Assembly: GCA_019054805.1 (NCBI GenBank) | Contig: JAHQIY010000002.1 | Coordinates: 4,464,001 to 4,528,000 of the forward strand | Direction: 5' to 3' | DNA length: 64,000 bases | Source of the DNA: Brachionus manjavacas | Lineage: Eukaryota; Rotifera; Eurotatoria; Ploima; Brachionidae | Part shown: piece by piece, positions 6,240 through 43,650 of the stretch | Layout of the letters: the number at the start of each line of letters is the position of its first letter | How positions within the stretch are numbered: position 1 is the first letter of the stretch | Made by a program: the position numbers and the translations under genes | Notes under the pieces: model-generated | What the model was told of the DNA's origin: nothing | What the model saw: the letters and a program-made list of their open reading frames with translations, nothing else | Databases searched by the model: none

Positions 6240-9200
6240 CAATGAAAGTTAAACTTTACTTCTTTTTATTCCTCTGTTTATGTCGGTTATATCGGATTTG
6301 ACTACTAGACTGGACGATCTGAAAATCAACAATGTCACAATCGAAAGTGAAATTAATAGACACAATCATGGAAAAAACAAATTCCACTTCAACAATCATT
6401 CCATTGCTTCTTAGTGACCTTTTCAATTCAAAAGCAGCAATTATGACATTGCAATAATTGAAAGAGTGGCCAGAGAATCTAAAGCGAAGGAAAATAAGGC
6501 AAGCAATATTATAAATAGTGGTTTTGCAGAATCAAAAAATGAGAATACATCAGATATCGAAGAAGATGACAAATTAGAAACAATTAATCTGCTTAAGGAA
6601 CTTGGCATAGCACCACCGAGAAATTTTGTTAAGAAGGCATACCTAATAAGCAAAACTAGAAAAGATAATAAACCGGCTTTACTGAAAGTTGTGTTGAAAG
6701 ATAAAGAAGCAGCAAATAAAATTGTTATGAGAGCAAAGAAAAAAATGAAACTGAAAGATATAAAGGAATTTATATTTATATAGACCTCACAAAAAATGAA
6801 ATAGAAGTTGAGCGGGCCGGTCGAAAAGAATGCTTAGAGCGAAACGAAAAACTGGAATATGGTCAAAGGAGGCATAAATACGGAATTGACTATTTTAAAA
6901 CACAAGCAGGGATTGAATATTTCTGGGGACTCCGATCAGGTAAAATCTGCAGGATTAATAGAACAACTAGAAAAATCATCGCTTAACAAACAAAACATGA
7001 ATTGCGGCAATTTTAATGGTAGCAACCAAAGTCCGCTTTTAACTGTAAATAAAATCTCGGAGAACAATGAACTAAACATACTTTCCTTAAGATGTTTAAA
7101 AACAAACGCAACATCACTAGTTAACAAATGGAACGAATTTAATTCGCATATTCAAGTCAATAATTTTCCACACATAGTTATGGTTACTGAAACATGGTTG
7201 AATTTAAAGTCAATCAAATAAATGAGCAATTATTCACTCTTCAATAAAAATCGAGAGCAAGAAGCTCGTGGAGGTGTTGCTATATATGAAAGAAATGATA
7301 TTGATGCCTTTGAAATTAATGAACTTGGTCTTAAAGACCAAGATATCGAGCAAATTTGGTACAATGTTTGTCTGGGAAAAGAGTCTATCTTATTTGGATG
7401 TATTTCATAGGCCACCATATTTAAGGTAGGAGATAAATTTTGAGGTGAATAAATCAATAACTAGAGCCAAATCAATTTTGGAAAGAAAAAAATTTACAGG
7501 TTTATTAATAGCTGGAGACTTTAACTACCCTCATATAAAATGGGACAATGTAATTGGACTTGTCGAAGGCAAAGGCAAAAGTAAAGGAAGGAATAACAGC
7601 GTTGCATTTCTAGATACCTTGCAGTAAGACTTCTAAACACAACATGTGCTCGACCGATCATTTGGTAAAAACATTCTCGATTTAGTATTGACTGAGAATA
7701 CAAAACGTATTTACGAGATTAGGGTTTGACCTTATTTAGGAACATAAAATAAAAATAAACTTCACGCATTCCTCTCTTGGGATTATATTCTGGCTGAAAA
7801 ACTCGGTAAAAGATATGAGAATCGGATACTTTTTGACAAAGGTGACTATAAAGAATTTAGTATTTTTTTAGAAAAAGCAGCCAATATACAATATATATAC
7901 ATAATAAATGTAAGGAACTAAATGAACAGTTCTCAGATTTTACAAGACTTTATAGCCTTGGTGTAACTGAATTTATTCAATCTAAAAGACTCTCAACTTC
8001 ATTAAATGGATGTTTGGCGCTAAAAGATGAGTATAAGCCAACATGTAAAGAGCTTGAAATATTGGTCAAGTTATAGCGAATGTCTTTTAAAAAAAATTGT
8101 CCTAGAATGTAAAAACAATCCAAAAAATATTTACTCTTACATTAACAATCAAAGAAAGAGCAAAGATAGAATTACATCACTATTAAACCAATATGACGAT
8201 TTGATCGTAGATAAGGGGACAATTACGAACTTATTAGGCGATCAGTTTCAAAAAGCATTTAGTAATGATACCAACGCAAAACTTCCTGGTTTTCAGTCTC
8301 AATGTACAGATTCCTGTTTGATTGATAAAGATTTTTTCTCAGAAGCTAATAACCTGAAGCATTTAAATTTACTTGATATAAAGAAATATTCTGGGAAGGA
8401 TGGCATTCACCCTCATGTATTAGGAAGCTGCGCAATAAACTATGCCAAGCTTCTGGTACCTATTTCGAAAACTAGTTTTATGTCCGGCGCGTTACCAATT
8501 GAGTAAAAAGAGGCAAATATTACTACTATTAATAAAAAAGGAAAGAATACCGAACCGGAAAACTACAGACCAATTTCTCTGACATTAGTTCCATGTAAAA
8601 TCATGGAAAGTATTATCAAGGAAGCAATGGTTGCCAATCAAATCAAATATGACCTGATTGCGCCTCATTAAAATGATTTCGTTACTAAACGATCATGCCT
8701 GAAAAATCTCCTTGAAACAAAAGACTCAGATACAGAAGCATTATTTCGTGGTTCCGCTTCAGCAGTTGTGTTTATGGATTTCGCTAAATTATTTGATGAA
8801 GTTTCACATAGAGCTCTGATCTAGAAACTTGAAGCTTATGGTTTCAGAGGTAATCTTCTTAATTGGCTATCTGACTTTTAAAACAGAAGAAAAAAAAGAG
8901 TTGTCCTTGGCAATAAGTGCTCCGACTGGAAAGGCGTATTAAGAGGTGTACCCCAAGGATCAGTACTTGGCCAGCTCCTCTTTACTATATTCATAAATTA
9001 TATACCGGAAGCAGTTCTCAGCTTAATTAAGCTTTTTGCTGATGACCCCAAACTGATAGCCACTATTAGAAACAGAATAGACGTACTGAACTTACAGTTG
9101 GATATTAACAGACTTGTTCCTTGGGCAAATAAATGGCAAAGGAGTTTCAATGAAGACAAGTGTAGATTAATGTTCTTCAAGAACAAACATTTCCAAAAAA

Positions 9201-10003
9201 TAAATTAAAAAATGGAAAATAAAGAAATGCAACAAACTGATGTTGACGTGACCTTGGAATTTACTTAAAGAGTGACCTAAAATGGAATCACCAAGCATCT
9301 CAAGCTGCAAACAAAGCAAGTATTATTCTAAGTCAACTTAAACAAGTTTTCAAATACTGGACAATTAAAACATTTAGGGAGCTTTATGTAACGTTTGTTA
9401 GGCCGCATCTGGAGTACGCTGCTGCCGCATAGAGTCCATATTCAAAAAAAGACAACGAAAATTTAGAAAAAATACCACGTTGTGCAACAAAATTTAAACC
9501 TGATATAAGGCAATTAAATTATGAAGAAAGATTGGAAATGCTCGAAATAACGCCCCTAAAGCAGAGACGTGAAAGAGGAGACCTAATTGAATTTTTTAAA
9601 TTGATTAAAGAGCTTAGCTTGGTAAAATGGCAAAATCCTATATTCAAATGTAACTCACTGATATCCGATGGTCCAGCTAGTGGTATACGAGGACACAAAC
9701 AAAGGCTTAGTAACCAACTTACAAAAATAAGGCAACGTGAAAATTTCTTGACAAATAGAGTTGTCAAGAATTGGAATGAGTTACCCTAAAACAGCATCAA
9801 ATGCCAATTAGACAGATACCTGGAGAGAAATAAAAAGAAATAAAGAAACACTAAAATAACTGGGTTACCTTTGAGCCCTGAATGTCTTCCGTTGAATTTG
9901 ATTAAGATGCGAAACGAAACTACATCTAGTCTCGCTCCACAGGTCTCCTGCTGTAGCTTTTTATTATAATTATTATTAGTATTATTATTATTATTATTTA
10001 GTT
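6240..10003 (+). mobile_element. Near-full-length decayed non-LTR retrotransposon (CR1/jockey-like) with (ATT)n tail
   Basis: Plus-strand LINE with both ORFs recognisable but broken by stops and frameshifts. ORF1 runs from ATG 6280 to about 6985 (two stops near 6411-6417, a frameshift near 6775) and carries the ARESKAKENKASNI and ELGIAPPRNFVKKAY blocks. ORF2 follows. Endonuclease pieces lie at about 7,070-7,620 (TETWLN, then GDFNYPHIKW). The linker and RT start lie at 8,027-8,506 (GKDGIHPHVLG). RT core is at about 8,550-9,200 (NYRPISLTLVPCKIME, VFMDFAK, GVPQGSVLG, FADD). The C-terminal region is at 9,290-9,840 (YVTFVRPHLEYA, NRVVKNWNELP). The catalytic FADD is intact but the frames are not. 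The 3' end is an imperfect (ATT)n run at 9961-9999. About 3.7 kb, close to the full length of this family. Confidence 0.85.
9961..9999 (+). repeat. (ATT)n tail of the LINE
   Basis: Imperfect ATT/TTA trinucleotide run directly downstream of GCTGTAGCTTTTTATTATA. It is shared in style with the tail at 21,680-21,786. It marks the 3' terminus of the plus-strand retrotransposon. Confidence 0.75.
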
Positions 10004-16200: not shown

Positions 16201-19200
16201 TGTTAAAAGTGCTCCCAAACTTTACTTTAGGATATTCAAAGCGCAAATTAATTGCATTGAATATTTGCAATTATTTTAGAATTGAAATTTAAAAGCTTTA
16301 AAAATTAAAAAAACTGTGTAAAAATGCAATGCAATTAAATTGCGCATTCGAAATTTTTGACCAAAAAGAGCTAATTGAAAATTGGACAAAAATTTAACTT
16401 TGCTGGATAAAGAAGACATTTACTTAAATAACTTTATTTACAATTTTTTTAAATTTTTTTAATTAAATCTTTAATTCATTTTAAAATATTTTATCTTTAT
16501 TAATTTTTTTAAATAAATAATTTCTTTAAATTCAATCAAGAATTTTAGATTATTTTAATTAACTAAAAGCTTAATATAAACACCGAAAAAAATCTATAAT
16601 GTACAATCAAGAGGGTTTGAACGAAGGCTTAGCCCATTCGAACGGTCTCTTGAGTAACTCAAAATATTTTTTTTAATAAAATTACGATTCATATAGGCTG
16701 TTTGTCATTTTATCTTATCAAGGTGATTTAAAAAATTACCAAATAAAATTCAAGGGTCTTTTTTAACAAACTTTTGTCCGTCTCTTTTCTTTTTATTCTA
16801 AGTATCGCATCTTTCTTTATTTAAATTTTTGCTAATAATTGTTATAAAGTTAATAAAAAGCTAGACTCCTACAGAAAAAATTGACGAGTTTCTTTCCAAT
16901 TAATATTGATACTCTATCAAAATAAATAAATTTCAGCATATTTTAAATTTGGCCAAAAAATATTGAACGTCTTTTTCTTAGTATTTCAACTATATAAATT
17001 TTTATTTTTTAAAATATTTAGTTAACAAGAGCTGTAGTAGATATAATATTTTACTCTCACAATTAATTATAAAAAATTTATCTTAATAAGGAAATAAAAT
17101 ACCGGTGTTATCAAAAGTCTTTTTTTAAGTTCCTTAAAATTCACTTATTTCAGTTTATTTCTCTAGATTCTCAAATTAAAAAATGAAAATGTTCGATTAT
17201 TAAAACTAAATAAAAATAAAATTCGATTAGAATAAAAGAATCAAATAGTTCTCCAGCTATCTAACTCTTGATTTTGTCTTTAGTCTTGGGAGAAATAATC
17301 AACTTGAGATACTTTTTTTAATTCAATTAGCGCTTAAATTACTGAATGAAAAATCTACAATCAAAAGTTTTAAAAAATGCATAAGAGCTCTTGAAAGCAA
17401 AATGATTTAAAAATTCTGTTTATGCCATAAGCAAAATTAATTTAGTCTTTATTTTTAAACTATTTAATTAAGACAAACATACAATTAGTTATTACATTGA
17501 AACACTATTAGTATTATGCAGTTATCAAGACACGAACGGAACACTGAACCCGTATTCAAAAGAAACAGGAACAGAAAAAATTGATGAACAGCTAGATAAT
17601 GGAATAAATTTAAACGACATTATTTATGAAAAATTGAGCCTGATAAAAGATTTTTTTGAAAAATTGGTAGAGCAAAATTTAGATACTTGTCTTCAAGTAA
17701 GCTGCCTATTAAAAAAATTAGCAATCTAAAAAAAAATTCTTCAAAGCTTAAAACATTGAATTTAATCTTCGAGCTCCAAGTTCGATATTTCTATTCAGTT
17801 GATTCAGAAATCGTCTACATTCGAAATTTAGTAAAAAATTTTGCCAAACGGCACCAAAAGGACTTATGGTCAGTGTACAAATTGAGCAGAATGTGTGTCC
17901 GGTACACACATTATGACCTGAGTGAGAAAATTTACGATGATTTATCTTTGCTTATGACCGGTGCCATCCATAACATGTCCACCAATGATCTTAGCTACAA
18001 AAGCTGGTTTGAGTTCATGTCACTTATATGCAAAGCCGAATCAGCACTGGTAAAAACTGAATTTGAAAACTTTTCCCAATTGATGACCAAACTAAACCAA
18101 TCTTTCAACGACTACACCCGTGCCCAAACACTTTTTAAATCCCTCTGTTCTAGATGCCTGACTCATTCCAACTCTTTGTCTGTGCTTGAAAATTCAAACA
18201 CCTGCTTTCAAATTCGATTTTGTGAACTTAGATGTGAACAAATTAAGCTATTCATTCATTTGAGTATGAGTTTGCTGACTTACCGGACCGTTCCGACTCC
18301 TGTCTTTCAGCTAAAATCGTCTGAAAACTTGGCCAGATATGGTCGAATAGCGCAACAAATGAAGTTTGGTGTAGTCGAACTGCAAAAATTAAACCAAAAA
18401 TTCAAAGATTTTATATCCGAATGCTTTGATGCCGATGAACACACGATCAACATATTAAATATGTAAGTGACAGATTGTATAAATATTGAAAATAAAGAAA
18501 TTATATATATTAGGTAAATATCTTAGTATGGCAATTTAAGGTTTCTGTGCCTAGATCAATTATTATTATTGCCTTTAATTGAAACTTCAGTCACAAATAA
18601 ATAAAAATCGATTCTAATAATAAAAATCCGGTTTTAATATAGCTAAAATTATTTATATAACTAATTAAAATTATGTCTTATGACATTTTTTAGTTAATCT
18701 AAATAAAAATTCTTTAATTTAATGAAACATTGAAAATTGAAAATATTGGCTCATTATTTAACACTAGTTAAAAATTAATGTTCAGCTCTTTATTAGAATT
18801 AATTTCTTCAAACAATTTAAATTTATTAAAACAAGAAAATAAGATTTAAAAAAAAATTTTATCCTCAATTTGGTGAAACAGATCCAAAAATTTTAAATAC
18901 TCAATTCGAATTTTTATATGTCCAAAAGGTTTAATATTTTATTATTTATTTATTTATTTGTATTCTGTGCTCCGAGCTAATGCTCCTTCAGATTAAAAAA
19001 ATTTATAATCAAAATACAATTAAATAAAAATAAAAAGAAAGAATAAAATAGAATTTAAAAAGGAAAATGTTATGAAATTATTAAATAATAGAAAGAATGA
19101 AATAAGAAAATATAAGAATTAAAGGTTTTTTTTCATTTTTTATTTGTTTAAGTAGAAATTTCTCTAATTAAGATCTAATCATATTATCTAATCGTGTTTT

Positions 19201-20666: not shown

Positions 20667-21700
20667 AAATAACAATTTTTTTAAATTTTCAAAATTAAGA
20701 CCTATAAAACCTAATTAAAAAAAATAAATCGAATTAAAATTTTTAAAGATTCTCTATCTAAACATTTAAATGAAATTTAAAAATATTACCTTTATTATTA
20801 TAAAAGAAAGTGGTATTGATTTTTTAGGAGAGAAAATAATTTCAAACGTGTTAAAAATTTAAAACCCGAAAGATTAATTGCGTTCGCTCTTTTAATTAAT
20901 ACCATCCGGATTAGCGAAGTTTTCCTAATGCTAAGAAAGTAAACGTCAAACTTATTTTAGAAAAAAAAAACTATTAAGAAAAGATTTAAAGTCAATCCAA
21001 ATTTTGTTCAGACATATCATTTATTTATTTATTTAGATTAAAAATCTCATTAAATAAGAATTAAACTTAAAACAAAAATTTTAAGCGCATTTTGAAAAAG
21101 ACCATTTTTTTTAATTAGTAATCAGTTTTTCTTTGGAATTTTGTGAATTTTAAAAAAATCATAAAATTTAGTAGACGTATTGAAGATGTGTTTAAAATTT
21201 TGTATCTTAATAATAAAATTCAAAGCGTAAATTAGGATACAATTAAAATTTTATTTTTTGTTTTTTTTTATTTTCTGATCAATTATAGATTTTACTTTTT
21301 TTACCAATTTATTGACGATTATCAGATACATTTTTTTTTAAATTAGCTGCTTTTCAAAAGAAATTTGCTTAATTAACAAATTAATAATAAAAAAATAAAT
21401 TTAAAGAATCAATTTTTGTCTCATGAATTGTGAATCAGGACTTTGAAACTGAGAAAGACACACTCCCATCTAATTATTCTAGACATATTCAATCTTCAGT
21501 TCAATAAAAAATGTCAAACTATGATCAAACTGATATATTTGAGTAACCACAAGCCAAAAGAACGCCTAAGACACACTAATATAATATTTTATTTAAATCT
21601 TTTCTGCGCAATTTTTTAAATCTTTTCTGCGCAATTTCGGCTACCATAGATTTCCTCCTTGTAGGTTATTTCCGCAAGCTTGCTTTCTGTAGCTTATTAC

Positions 21701-21739
<39 letters not shown>

Positions 21740-22755
21740 TATTATTATTATTACTATTATTATTATTATTAATATTATTATTATTATAAGTGTGATTTTG
21801 GAAAATTGTGAGAGGAAATTTTTTTGGAACCAAAAAAAGGTTTAATTGAAAAACAAGATTAAACTTTAAGTAAAATATAATAAACGAAAGACTTTTAATT
21901 AATTCAATAAAAGAATCTGCAAATTCTTTAGAGGCTAATTCCTTGAACTACCTTTTTTTTACACTCGATTCTAGAACTTAAAATAGCAGATCTTCAAAAT
22001 ATGCGAATGGGTGTCATCAAAATCATCAGATTTTTATTACCAAAACTGTCATCAATGTTGAAGCAACTTGAAGTTCATGATCAAAATTTAATAAATCTGA
22101 ATTTCAATAAAATTCAAATTATATTAAATTACGAATAATTTTTGAAAAACAAGAATCCAAGACTTCTTTTGGGAACAATCTTATTATATTTAATTCTGAT
22201 CAAATTAAAAAAGATGTCCTTGTAACTTTTCCTATTTATTTTTATTCCTTTAAAAGATTTTTTCCATTCTTATAATCCATCGAGGGTTAAATTAAAATAT
22301 GATTTTTAAATATAAATTCAAAAAAATAAAGCTTAAGTAAACATTTATAAATGCTTTTGAATATTTTTAATTTCAAGTTTTTGGTCAAAAGAAATTTTTG
22401 GAAACATAATAAAAAAATTTGCTTGATTTATGAAATTGTTAGAATAAAATTTATTAGACTTCTTAATTTAGTGGAAACTTGTTAAATTTCAAGCAAGAAA
22501 CCAGAAAAAAAATGTTTTTTTTTTGTTTTAAATTAGATTATTTTGTTTGATAAACATTAAATTTCTGTTAAAAATAAACTGTTTGATTAAAAAAATTGAA
22601 AAAAATTGAAAAATATTTAAAGCAAGTTTTTAATAAGTATTTATTAAAATTTGTAAAAAAAATAAGCTCAACTTAAATGAAAGCTAAAATTTACATTAAA
22701 AAATTGTTTATTTTTTATATTGAAAATTGACAAAAAGTGCTTTTGCTGAGTTAAT
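20667..22755. other. Intergenic region with a LINE tail and (TTA)n microsatellite
   Basis: AT-rich spacer between INTS7 and the tau-like gene. Only the retroelement tail at 21,590-21,786 is recognisable; otherwise I see nothing supportable. Confidence 0.5.
21590..21786 (+). repeat. Solo LINE 3' tail with imperfect (TTA)n run and a 24-bp tandem duplication
   Basis: The segment TTTAAATCTTTTCTGCGCAA is present twice in tandem (about 21,595-21,640). It is followed by moderately GC-rich sequence and CTGTAGCTTATTACTTTTATT leading into about 90 bp of TTA/ATT repeats. The motif before the microsatellite resembles CTGTAGCTTTTTATTATAAT at the end of the LINE at 6,240-10,003, so this is probably a 5'-truncated copy of a related element. 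Confidence 0.55.
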
Positions 22756-35509: not shown

Positions 35510-35803
35510 TTAATTGTCCCTATTCTATCCTTGTGGATAATGGGGAGGCGCTCATCTCCTTTTCAAGTACCTTTTTGAGCAACGGCTCCGATCTGAAACA
35601 GATATTACTGCATCGAGTTGATCATCTACACCGCAATTATTGCCCAGTCGAAACTTGTCCCCCTATTTTTATGATGAAAGAGGTTTAAACATTCGCCCCG
35701 TATTGCAAAGATATTTTGAAGATTTTTTCACCCTCAGCGGGATTTGGTTTCGATCCTCTACTTGCATGACTTACACGCAAACCATTCGGCTATACGGGCT
35801 CTA
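35510..35803 (-). mobile_element. tRNA-derived SINE, copy B (full length, with TSD)
   Basis: Read on the minus strand: GAGCCCGTATAGCCGAATGG (box-A-like), then about 40 bases later GGATCGAAACC, one mismatch from the box-B consensus GGTTCGAAACC. A tRNA-unrelated body and the shared core follow, ending GAATAGGGACAATTA. It is flanked by direct repeats GATTGAGTAA at 35500-35509 and 35804-35813, a 10-bp target-site duplication. 294 bp. Pol III promoter boxes plus TSD define a LINE-mobilised SINE. The two boxes and the ends are read directly from sequence; the mobilising LINE is inferred. Confidence 0.8.
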
Positions 35804-36182
35804 GATTGAGTAAAAAAGGTATTTATCGTGTCAATTTTCCAGATTTGTTAAACTCAAAGCACAATTCAATCAAAAGAACACTGAATGCTTGATCTATTTA
35901 TCGAAAACACAGAAATTTCCATTTTAAAATTGAAGTTATGAAAATAATTGGTTTAATTTTTTGTGTTTGAATTACAAAATTTAACCAATTTTGAAATAAC
36001 ATAGAAAAAGTGCGATGTTTCAAATATATTTTTCAGTCAAAAAAAAAAAAAATTAAAGTTAATATTGCAATCATTTTCATATTTGAAATTAAATTCTTAG
36101 GTGAAATAGAATGAGTTTAATTTTCGGTTGGAAATTTGAAAAAAAATATTGAAAATTCTTTTTTTAACTTTAAAACAATTCT

Positions 36183-36310
36183 CTTATTTATTTTTTACCG
36201 AACAAATGCTTCTTCAGAATAAAAACATTTAAAAAACTAAAAATAAAGTTAAATAATAAAAAAGTAAAAAAAAAAATGAATAAAAGAAAAATAATTCATT
36301 CAGATTAAAG
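36183..36310 (-). repeat. Retrotransposon 3'-tail repeat, copy 3 (eroded)
   Basis: TCTTATTTATTTTTTACCGA, then AATGCTTCTTCAGA and A-rich DNA align with the other tail copies. The hairpin has decayed. It is nested inside the TIR transposon. Confidence 0.45.
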
Positions 36311-36341
36311 CTTATATTAAGTCGTTGAAAAAATGGGTCTA

Positions 36342-36866
36342 GTCGGTTAGGTGAACCAAAGTTCACTTATTATCTGAAAAATTCTCGTTTTCAGATTTTG
36401 TGAACTATTGTTTCACCTAATAATTATTAGGGTGAAGCAAAATATTTTAATTCAATTTTATTTTTAATTTGAAAGAGCTTTAGAAATAGCTTAGCATTTG
36501 CTTTGATCTGGTTGACTTAGTATTACTTTTCCATCAATCCCAAATACCCAAATGCGCTCTCTACTTAAAACTTTGCCTTTCAGCATAAATAATAAAAATT
36601 AAAATTAATTTTTCACCCTAAGAGTTTGACTTTAAGGACATAGATTCATCTATTTTGCAAAATTAACCTACTTCACCAAACTCTAAATTTTCCATGTAAT
36701 TATTTTTTCTATCTTAATTTTTATCATTACATTAGCTTTTTTTCTAATTAGACGAATAAATTTAAAAAAAGGTGAACAATTTTTAGATTAGGTGAACTAA
36801 TAGTTCATACAATCTGAGAACAAGAATTGTTCCAGTAACAGGTGAACCATGGTTTACCTAACCGAC
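36342..36866. mobile_element. 525-bp MITE with about 85-bp TIRs and a GGTGAA motif array
   Basis: Ends are GTCGGTTAGGTGAACCAAAG and the inverted counterpart GGTTTACCTAACCGAC, each bordered by TA (36340-36341 and 36867-36868). Similarity of the inverted arms extends about 85 bp (AGATT..GTGAACTATT..TTCACCTAAT). GGTGAA or its complement TTCACC occurs at 36350, 36412, 36431, 36612, 36672, 36771, 36791 and 36841, with further GTGAAC half-sites at 36361 (complement) and 36400. No ORF. Consistent with a Tc1/mariner-type miniature element with repeated transposase-binding sites. Confidence 0.8.
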
Positions 36867-37203
36867 TAAAAGCAGAAAAACTTTGTTTTTTTCTAATAAA
36901 ATTTTGACTCTAGTGATAATTTACTTTCGTTTGGTACATTTTAACAAATACTTAATTTATCAAAAATGGAAAACAGAGCGTAGATAGTTTTTTTAACTTC
37001 AAATATTATCTTTAAGGATCATCATATCACAAACCCAAAGTCAAAATTTATTAAAAAAAAACTAACTTTTTCATGTTTGCAATACTAACTTAAAATCAAT
37101 TTTTTTTGAAACTGAAAAAAATATTTGAAACATCGCACTTTTTCAATTTTTTTTCAACATTGGATACATTTTGTAATTCAAACACAAAAAATTAAATCAA
37201 TTA

Positions 37204-40200
37204 TATGATTAGTTATGAAAATCGTCAGAATGCAAAATTTGTAAAAAAAAAAGGATTCAGGAATTGACTACTGATTTTTTCAATCGTGTCAGTTATTTTA
37301 AAAAAATCAATTTTCTGTTTTTTGGAAAAAAATTGTAGTTTTAAATGAGGAATTGGATTTAGAAGAATTAGAAAATTTCAATTTTGTTAATTGAATTTAT
37401 GATTTTTATGTAAAAAAAATTTATCTGTAAAGTTAATTAGAAATTTTTAAATAAAAAAAATGATCTGATTATAAAAAATCAAATAATAAATTGCAAGATC
37501 AAATCTTTCGAAGATTCAAACACCATCGAAGACCAGTGCTACATGATACTATTGAAAAATAACATAATTTTCAAAAAAAACTCAAAAATGCTTCAAATCA
37601 AATCAACAATGATTATGAAAATATTCCAAAAAATGTTATCCAAATCGAAATAAGTGAATACATGGGTCCATTAGGTGTTTTTTTATTTACATTGTGGCGA
37701 TTGTAGTAAAAACTATTAACTGGAATCGAAAGAGATAACATTGTAAAATTTTTAGCTTCTATTTATAGTTTTTGTTTTGTTATTATTTTAATGAGATGAT
37801 ATTTATATTTATATTAATGGATTCGAACTCTTAAATAAATTGAAAAAAAATTAGAATTCAAGAATTTTTTTTGATTATCGAGCAGTAATTTCGAAGATCT
37901 TTGTTATTGTTCTTAAAAAATATACATGATAGAAAAGTATCCTTTATTGTTTTTATTTGTTACCTAAGGCTCATTCGAAAATTCGATTGTAAAAACTTTG
38001 AGCAAAATATCAAATTGGTATTTTAAATTAGACTTTATTTAGGGGACAACTAACCTGACGGCAGAAGTTAGATCAGATTTTATCAAATTTTGAAATGAGA
38101 AAATTGGTCAAATCATATGCAAATAGTGTTATGACCATTACTTTTGTTTAATATTTTGATAAATTCTAATCAAATAATTTCCTTCAGCTGAAAATATTTT
38201 ATATCCTTATTTAATGACTGGTAAGATCGGTGGAAAATTATAAATCAGAAAGAGTCTTTGTGATATAGCGACATCTTTCTAATAGCTGCTCCAATACGTC
38301 TTACGAGAAGATCGGATAGACGGGCCCAAGGGTACTAATGTAAACATTACAGTCTTATAACGCAAAACAAAATATTTGATTTTTAAAGAAAATCGCTCAT
38401 TATGTATTCAATAGCACGAGATCGAGTTATTAAACTCTTCTTTTTATCATTTTTATAATTGAAATGTTATGAGATGAAATTGATTAAACAAAATCTTTTG
38501 ATTAAAATAAGTCAACATAAAAATGGAGTATCTTTAGGAAATTCATGGAATTAATCGGAAAATGTAAAATTAAAATTGTATGATTTTGATTTAGATTTAA
38601 TTAGAAATTTTCAAATCAATCACAGTTGGATAAGAATCAAATAATCTTGGTAAAAATCAAAAAGATATAACAATTAAATAATCAATTATATTTTATGATT
38701 AAATCACAAAAATTTAGTTATTTAAATCTTTATTCTTAAATTCGTTTAATTAAATTTAGAAAAATTATCTAAAATCGATTCATCATTATTTTTTAACTTT
38801 TTTTTTGTAAAATTATATTATTAGATTAGTTTTCCTTGCTAAACTCGTAAAAGATAAATAATATATATTTAATAAACCACTCAAGCATTTTAATATTTTA
38901 TTCTTAAGAATGGCAAGTTTTTGAAGATTAATTGATTTAATTCAAATAAATTACACTTGAAAAATGCATTCATTTTAATTAATATAATTTGCTATGAACT
39001 AGTTAAACAAGAGGTAATCTTAGAAACCTTCATTTTAAATTTTCACTACCGATTTGTTAGAACTCAGTTTATTTTAAAAATAAAGAGTAAGATTTATTTT
39101 TTTAATTAATTAGATTTTAGGTAATAAAATATTTATGTAAATAGAGATTAAAGCTGATTATTTATTATTAATCGATTTCATTGAAATCATCAAACAATAT
39201 ACAAAAGGTAGAAATTAGCTTCCATTCTTAGCAAAGATACTCAGGTTTAAAATTCTTAAAATATAAAATGATTAATTAGATGTTATTCAGTTTTAAAAAG
39301 ATAATTTTTGCAAAACAAATGTGCTAATTAATAACATTTAAGTTAATAATAATAGCTTTATTTTAGAAAAATCATCAAATCAATACAATATTACAGAAAA
39401 AAAGATCAAATTATTACGAATGAAAAAATTAATAAAGAATATAAATTTGTATTTCAAATCAAATTTGTATTTTATATAGAAAAAATTTAAATTTGGTTTG
39501 TTTAAAAACCGACTTTTCTCAAATTTATTTAAATTTTTAAACTTTTCACATTCACTTTGATTTATTTCTTTTATAATAAATTAGATCTCGAAAACTCGCT
39601 TTAACTGATTTTAGTTAGGGACCAAAATTGATTTCCAATAACGTTTTAGTTTCCTCTAATCTTTAACCATAAAATAGTTAAAACTACCTTATTCATTAAG
39701 AAAAAAAATAATTTTTTTTCAATCATGACATTTATTTAAGATATTTTTAAAAATAAGTGATCATCCCATAAGAAACTTTATTGAAAGATAAATACCATGA
39801 TTTAATTGTTAATATTAATTTAATTTCAATTCAATTTTTACTTGAATGAACAAAATAACATTATAATTAAACAAGATAATATTCCTCAATTTTAATTTTT
39901 TTTAATTTAACTTATTTTTTCTTTTGAAAAATCTTAAAAATACCCATTTTGTCAGATATTTCCTTGAGCAAAATAAAATTTATATCTTTAATCGGATTGT
40001 TTGAAAAGTATTCATTAAATAACTTAATTCTTATCGATTAATTAAAATTAATTTATAACTAAAATATGTATTTAATTTTATTTATGTAATTTTTATATTT
40101 TATTCTTTATTGTTAATTTTTCAATTGATTCTAATGTATTTTTTCTTTAATTTTTCTAATTTTTTCATAAATTTATGAGGTTCTTCTGTATTTCCGAATA

Positions 40201-42354: not shown

Positions 42355-43575
42355 AATGAAAATTTTGAAATTCTCTTCCCACGCACATGAGGAACATTTT
42401 CAATTTTTTTTTAAATTTATTGTGTTAGGCTTTAATTTATAAATATACAGCATTGTTAGCAAGTCAAGAAATTCTTGATTTTTTTAGTGTCTATTTTGAT
42501 TTAAACTTTCATAGAATGGGTAAGGATAATGATTTTAAGACAATTTTTTTTCGTCTAAAATCTTTATTCTCTTAGATAAAAATTGGAAAAAAATTTCGAT
42601 TGAAATAAAAATTCATTCATTTGTTATTGTAATTAGACAAAGACTATCCAAATCATTTAATTTTTTTTTATTGTGAAAAATTTAAGAAACTGGCCGAAAG
42701 CAAGTTTGGCCGCCTTTAATTTTCATACTTTTATTGTTTTTATTTGGCATTGCGTCTACTTAGCTCTCAGAAATATTTAAGGTACAAGCATACGTTTTGG
42801 TACCTCAAGTATTAAGAATACTTGGGAAAATTTTTTTCAGCTTATTCAATGAACTTGGCTCTTGTTTGGCAATGGCTTAATCGATCCTAGTCCATAAATT
42901 CCTTCCTTCATTTATGTGACTCGATGGCAAGGGCCATTTTCTTGTAGAAATTTGAAAGCCTCATCTTCTCTTAACATACCTATTGATGGAAGTAAGCTAT
43001 TTCTTAAGATATCAACATGCATCTGAGAATTAAGTTTTACGTCAAATATAGAATAAAATTTCTAGACCATAATAGCTCATACGACCCAAATCCTGATAGA
43101 ACCACTTCCTTGCTTTATTGGCCAGATAATACATTGTTTATTATGCTTCTTTGATGGCATTTCTTAGTGCTTATTACTATCACTGAACATTATTTATCTC
43201 CATTTAGATATTCTCCATTATTTAACGTCCAGACAGAAACTTTTTCTAGTTTTCTTTAAGATTTTGTAAACCTTGGTTTTCGAGCCGCATTTTTCCATTC
43301 AAATTTTTTTTTTAAATCTTTGTCTTATCAATTCCATGCTTTTCGGACAAACTAGTTTTTCAATTCATTATGGAAATTTTCAGTTATGTGCAATGATTTT
43401 TTATAGTTAAGTTCTATTTTTTTACCATACGAACTGATTTACGATCATCTTTTTCAGTTGAAACCTGAACATTTCTTAATAAGGAATATTGTTTTCTGTT
43501 CTGCCCTGTTAAAAATAAGACAACTTTTAAGAGTTTGAATGGACATCTTGGTTTTAAAAGCGATATGTTCTTATT

Positions 43576-43650
43576 TAATTAATTATTTATTTGTTTTATC
43601 TGTATCGAGATAAAGCTCCTTCAGATCAAAAAAATTTAAATAAAATAAAT
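43576..43650 (-). repeat. Retrotransposon 3'-tail repeat, copy 4
   Basis: TTATTTATTTGTTTTATCTG, then CGAGATAAAGCTCCTTCAGA and A-rich DNA. Same orientation as the other three copies. It abuts a plus-strand RT fragment. Confidence 0.55.

Follow-up and report, generated by a model that had tools for sequence, protein, structure and literature searches.

A probable composite, Sola2-type non-autonomous transposon family in the rotifer Brachionus manjavacas

Sola2 transposons have been described in two amoebozoans with AT-rich 4-bp target-site duplications of the form AWWT, or ATAT, AAAT and ATTT (PMC3627910). Those of Dictyostelium fasciculatum (DFa-1,2,3) and Polysphondylium pallidum (PPa-1,4,5) have inverted ends of 12-21 bp, and the terminal inverted repeats of Sola elements as a whole are reported to measure 11 to 1124 bp (PMC10741241). 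MITEs and other non-autonomous DNA transposons combine high copy number, inverted ends and precise target duplications with a lack of coding capacity; the same review gives MITEs a length of mostly under 500 bp, and lists duplications of 8 bp for hAT and 7-12 bp for Mutator elements (PMC10741241).

The element described here has AWWT duplications in common with the amoebozoan Sola2 elements (PMC3627910). Unlike them, it has inverted ends of about 125 bp, contains neither a transposase nor a Fanzor, and carries a nested second element. Ends of 125 bp fit Sola, since the reported range extends from 11 to 1124 bp. The family shares all of the above features of MITEs and other non-autonomous DNA transposons, but it is longer than most MITEs, at about 1.3 kb, and its founder already contained a second element and a LINE-like tail, which makes it composite. 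The copy analyzed in most detail lies in a stretch of 64,000 nucleotides (the window, G000:C2:4464001-4528000, with a G+C content of about 26%) of a 114.17-Mb assembly of 61 contigs. Its features, in window positions, are as follows.

35946..35949, no strand: left 4-bp target-site duplication, AATT
35950..37198, plus strand: outer element, 1249 bp, non-autonomous, probably of Sola2 type as judged by its duplication
35950..36074, plus strand: left outer terminal inverted repeat
36160..36300 (bounds approximate), minus strand: LINE-like tail repeat, a hairpin GAGC..GCTC followed by an AAAT-rich end
36327..36334, no strand: left inner 8-bp direct repeat, GAAAAAAT here and GAAAAACT in the consensus
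36335..36874, plus strand: inner element, ancestral to the family; some 100 nt of interior sequence seen in the consensus are missing here
36335..36421, plus strand: left inner inverted repeat
36787..36874, minus strand: right inner inverted repeat, its outermost bases mutated in the window copy
36875..36882, no strand: right inner 8-bp direct repeat, GAAAAACT
37073..37198, minus strand: right outer terminal inverted repeat
37199..37202, no strand: right 4-bp target-site duplication, AATT

An earlier sequence-only reading of the locus had proposed two nested pairs of inverted repeats, and both are real and lie close to where it placed them. In the window copy, the outer pair aligns over 105 nt without gaps (35944-36048 with 37100-37204, 90% complementary) and the inner pair over 82 nt (36340-36421 with 36787-36868, 82% complementary). 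We built a family consensus of 1,356 nt from those 28 of 40 two-ended copies that were 1100-1520 nt long, the window copy included; the 28 are 86-95% identical to it. In the consensus, 125 of 127 columns agree between the outer arms (98%) and 73 of 87 between the inner arms (84%), and thus neither inverted-repeat pair is due to chance. The outer element starts with GGTTTAATTTTTTGTG, and the window copy is now 7% away from the consensus (1151 of 1243 aligned bases identical, 92.6%).

Both elements lack a transposase, as had been supposed. The longest stop-to-stop reading frame is 45 aa in the window copy and 78 aa in the consensus (shuffled sequences: median 60, 95th percentile 93), and among these frames we found neither coding capacity nor, specifically, a Sola2 transposase. 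Rfam returned zero matches over 35800-37300. Non-autonomous elements are missing a transposase by definition, and the absence of one excludes nothing by itself.

The many dispersed copies that were expected of a transposon do exist. A 29-nt stretch of the outer end, allowing up to three mismatches, matches the genome 680 times forward and 660 times in reverse (1,340 in total; reversed control, 0), and a 76-nt end matches 217 and 211 times (428). With the whole outer element as query, scoring of 40 out of 2,173 candidates recovers eight other places that match over nearly the full length, at 79-89% identity. If each copy has two ends, the 1,340 matches would correspond to about 670 copies, and the family probably comprises several hundred. 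It is thus a multi-copy family with inverted ends, a target duplication and no coding capacity, in the manner of non-autonomous, MITE-like elements. Longer copies were considered as places where a parent element might be hidden, and this was rejected: the 29 distinct stretches of at least 150 nt between family matches have few mutual matches, and most of them have the appearance of independent insertions or of flanks caught by chance. The exception is L065, L069 and L076, which have one insert type in common. Short conserved sequences followed by TTA-repeat tails occur at window positions 9961-9998 and 21694-21787, and this tail also borders the inserts in those three copies.

The target duplication of the outer element is a 4-bp ANNT. 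Identical 4-bp flanks are present in 33 of 40 two-ended copies (1,000 shuffles of the right flanks: mean 8.5, maximum 15), and identical 5-bp flanks in none of the 40. A looser end search yields an exact 4-bp duplication in 36 of 47 copies: 14 ATAT, 9 ATTT, 5 AATT and 5 AAAT, together 33; ACAT, AGAT and AACT occur once each. These last three are non-palindromic and match in register. Several of the seven copies without identical flanks in the stricter set have misregistered or mutated ends, and some of the 11 copies that lack an exact duplication in the looser set have misregistered ends; L069 is a true mismatch, with ATTT on one side and AAAA on the other.

We read the outer element as a non-autonomous element of Sola2 type because AWWT duplications are published for Sola2, and the AT-rich 4-bp duplication is exact in 33 of the 40 copies (PMC3627910). 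The outer element is probably of Sola2 type; the match in duplications supports this assignment and does not prove it. Taken as a whole, we think it probable that the outer element is a non-autonomous Sola2-type element, that the inner element is an older passenger, that the LINE-like tail was in the founder, and that the composite spread as a unit. A partner of autonomous size was sought by eye among 100 of the 1,340 and 100 of the 428 end matches, and no end pair indicated one: all convergent end pairs within 10 kb at these places spanned less than about 3 kb, not enough to hold an intact partner. A search with the profile PF25273, our guess at a Sola2 marker, matched nothing anywhere, controls included, and is therefore uninformative.

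The outer element could instead be a member of a different DDE superfamily that makes 4-bp duplications, such as Ginger or Academ, or of an undescribed one, and resemble Sola2 in its duplication only. Duplications of about 4 bp are possible in superfamilies other than Sola2, with Academ as an example; duplication length alone defines no superfamily, and neither the reading frames nor the PF25273 search produced a transposase. Ginger elements have ends of 40-270 bp and duplications of 4-6 bp, which would suit the family, and ends of the form 5'-TG...CA-3' (PMC10741241), whereas the outer element ends in GG...CC inside its duplication. The T of ANNT nevertheless permits the same letters to be read as TGG...CCA with a 2-bp duplication. 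Against any other superfamily stands the agreement of the AWWT pattern with the published Sola2 cases (PMC3627910), and we regard such an assignment as unlikely, if worth keeping in view beside a Sola2-type element.

A retrotransposon tail inside the outer element had also been noted, as an insertion at this locus. The LINE-like repeat is indeed there, and its local origin is not upheld, for it is present in 26 of the 28 aligned copies. On the minus strand it presents a short hairpin and then an AAAT-rich end, an arrangement that would suit the 3' end of a LINE. Consensus positions 221-345 are 71-74% identical to window positions 18948-19048, 2028-2152 and 43574-43649, all outside the family, and these three places are 79-83% identical to one another. 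The core of the repeat, with one mismatch, has 490 and 527 genome matches on the two strands (about 1,000 dispersed; control, 0), and the version carried by the outer family, with two mismatches, has 96 and 122. Matches of 25-41 nt locate a tail-related piece in opposite orientation within the inner element. In the window, copies of the LINE-like tail repeat extend over 2012-2110, 18931-19060 and 43575-43647. At 8024-8506 there is a 160-aa open frame that resembles a fragment of a LINE reverse transcriptase by eye, with no match in Pfam.

The inner arms read GGGTCTAGTCG on both sides of the consensus, and directly outside GGGTC, at both arm ends, stands an exact 8-bp direct repeat, GAAAAACT. 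When each distinct inner end is called left or right according to the 8-mer to which it is closer, GAAAAACT is exact at 48 of 68 ends on the left and at 36 of 47 on the right, and present with at most one change at 65 and 42, respectively. Two distinct nested elements, as first proposed, appear to be present, the inner arms being abutted by this repeat inside the outer element. Bounded by this repeat, the inner pair seems to be a second element in its own right, which we read as an ancient insertion with an 8-bp duplication. The 8-bp-duplication transposons, which include P, Merlin and Sola1 as well as hAT and Mutator, also have such a repeat with inverted ends, but from its ends GGGTCTAGTCG and the repeat GAAAAACT we could assign the inner element to no superfamily. 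Arms that are 84% alike in the consensus beside 8-bp repeats that are identical count against a clean insertion; either the inner element already had imperfect ends when it inserted, or chance has some part in the 8-bp repeat.

Outer copies without the inner element were looked for, as had been recommended, and no precise empty site was found in the sequence searched. With a joined-empty-site query, base 190 is the last one matched in 32 of 35 left-flank matches, and base 183 the first in 7 of 10 right-flank matches, which means that both sides keep the 8-mer. These 45 matches stem from the best 40 of 2,218 candidates, and none of them spans the join. None of the four large deletion junctions found lies at the inner ends, in a scan that missed L072. 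Two candidate empty sites were rejected because neither breaks at the inner ends: the gap in L072 runs from 36163 to 36897 in window coordinates, and that in L073 from 227 to 566 in the consensus. Independent inner copies outside the outer element were likewise absent from the loci read, in searches that were not exhaustive. Outer sequence lies beyond the inner arm in all 30 loci read (of 40 places listed, from 478 candidates; window copy included) and beyond the central segment in all 20 loci read (of 40 places listed), and a query of the exact inner end with two purines outside has 0 matches; judged by base composition, this query would pick up roughly one in four foreign flanks. L015, a candidate for an independent inner copy, was set aside after its surroundings were read as a second outer copy.

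The lack of an empty site and of independent inner copies agrees with a second alternative, that the inner pair is an internal palindromic region which evolved within the family and that its 8-bp repeat arose by chance; so does the match of the inner arms at only 73 of 87 columns. This alternative has to accommodate the exact repeat at both consensus arm ends and at most of the ends read. Random pairs of 8-mers from the window agree in 346 of 2,000,000 trials (about 0.0002), and A-rich pairs in 1,912 of 1,000,000 (0.002). We consider an evolved palindromic region improbable and favor an inserted second element. A transposon that ends in GGGTC and makes 8-bp duplications would have jumped into the founder outer element, its own family having left no outside copy that we found. 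The motif GTGAAC occurs in the consensus six times forward and twice in reverse, in or near the inner arms (consensus 400-540 and 930-1010); these repeats could be putative protein-binding sites of a lost inner transposase.

The inner left arm is present in 27 and the inner right arm in 23 of the 28 aligned copies. Since the tail and the inner element are found in most of these copies, both were present in the founder. That all 30 inner-arm loci read are inside the outer element, with no empty site found, places the entry of the inner element before amplification. The order is thus founder, then tail and inner element (either first), then amplification, then the window copy, and what the window locus shows is a single insertion of a composite that had been put together beforehand. 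The three insertions that had been put in sequence at this locus are mostly ancestral, the tail and the inner element being part of the consensus. A tail-bearing founder and its inner passenger would have been amplified and spread as a single composite unit. We describe a new high-copy composite non-autonomous family whose composite origin is datable, and which would add a Sola2-type family to the rotifer genome.

The assignment of both nested elements to Tc1/mariner, on the strength of TA borders around each pair, is extremely improbable: TA dinucleotides do lie close to the arm ends in the window copy, but TA stands on both sides directly outside GG...CC in 0 of 47 outer copies, which rules it out for the outer element, and the inner TA is located within the arms (GGGTC-TA-GTCG on both sides of the consensus). 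At -5/-4 from GG, where the outer border had been seen, T is found in only 27% of 94 ends. The TA appearance is accounted for by the 4-bp ANNT duplication, here AATT, together with the inner TA inside the arms, and the direct repeat of the inner element is 8 bp long. TA borders are easily seen in an AT-rich genome and mean little without many copies, which made this a tempting mis-assignment to correct.

The sequence preference of the family extends beyond the duplication. We found 116 ends, dropped 22 that do not start with GG, and compared the remaining 94 with control sites that have the same 4-mer and come from the 64-kb window, not from the whole genome. A is present at -16 in 83 of the 94 ends (control mean 36.8, maximum 50), T at -13 in 76 (36.1, 52), A at -10 in 59 (35.0, 49) and T at -7 in 64 (36.7, 53). 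A whole ANNT begins at -16 in 69 ends, where the controls average 14.0 with a maximum of 24, and at -10 in 47 (mean 13.9, maximum 27). Beyond the duplication, ANNT motifs thus recur in phase at distances of 6 and 12 bp; they are strong at 12 bp, as at the duplication itself, and weaker at 6 bp. The A at -16 is seen at both element ends (48 of 52 and 31 of 38, with 4 ends assigned to neither). There is a mild A+T enrichment from -17 to -21, and positions farther out approximate the background.

Because the phased pattern lies outside the element, it reflects target choice, and it may indicate that a transposase dimer captures a palindromic target. The enzyme would act in trans, from a gene located elsewhere in the genome or since lost, and would bind the outer ends and insert the element via a 4-bp staggered cut at phased ANNT sites. 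No report of such a phased target for Sola was found in the literature searched. We suggest tentatively, as a possibility short of an expectation, that the transposase reads a palindromic target of ~28 bp, unusual in its length, AnnTnnAnnTnnAWWTnnAnnTnnAnnT, in a 6-bp register, which would be either a general but so far undescribed trait of Sola2-type transposition or the mark of an undescribed superfamily. With its many natural insertion sites, the family offers material for working out the target rule of a transposase that has been little studied, and the phased pattern deserves a genome-wide test.

Targeting of cruciforms or palindromes was considered and rejected: apart from a base preference common to both flanks, pairing the flanks of 36 copies gives no more complementarity than pairing shuffled flanks (200 of 432 at positions 1-12; shuffled mean 193.1, with 200 reached by 229 of 1000 shuffles). 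One copy, L077 (G000:C2:5975650-5977400), lies at the center of a near-perfect palindrome: outside the duplication, its flanks are complementary at 49 of 50 positions.
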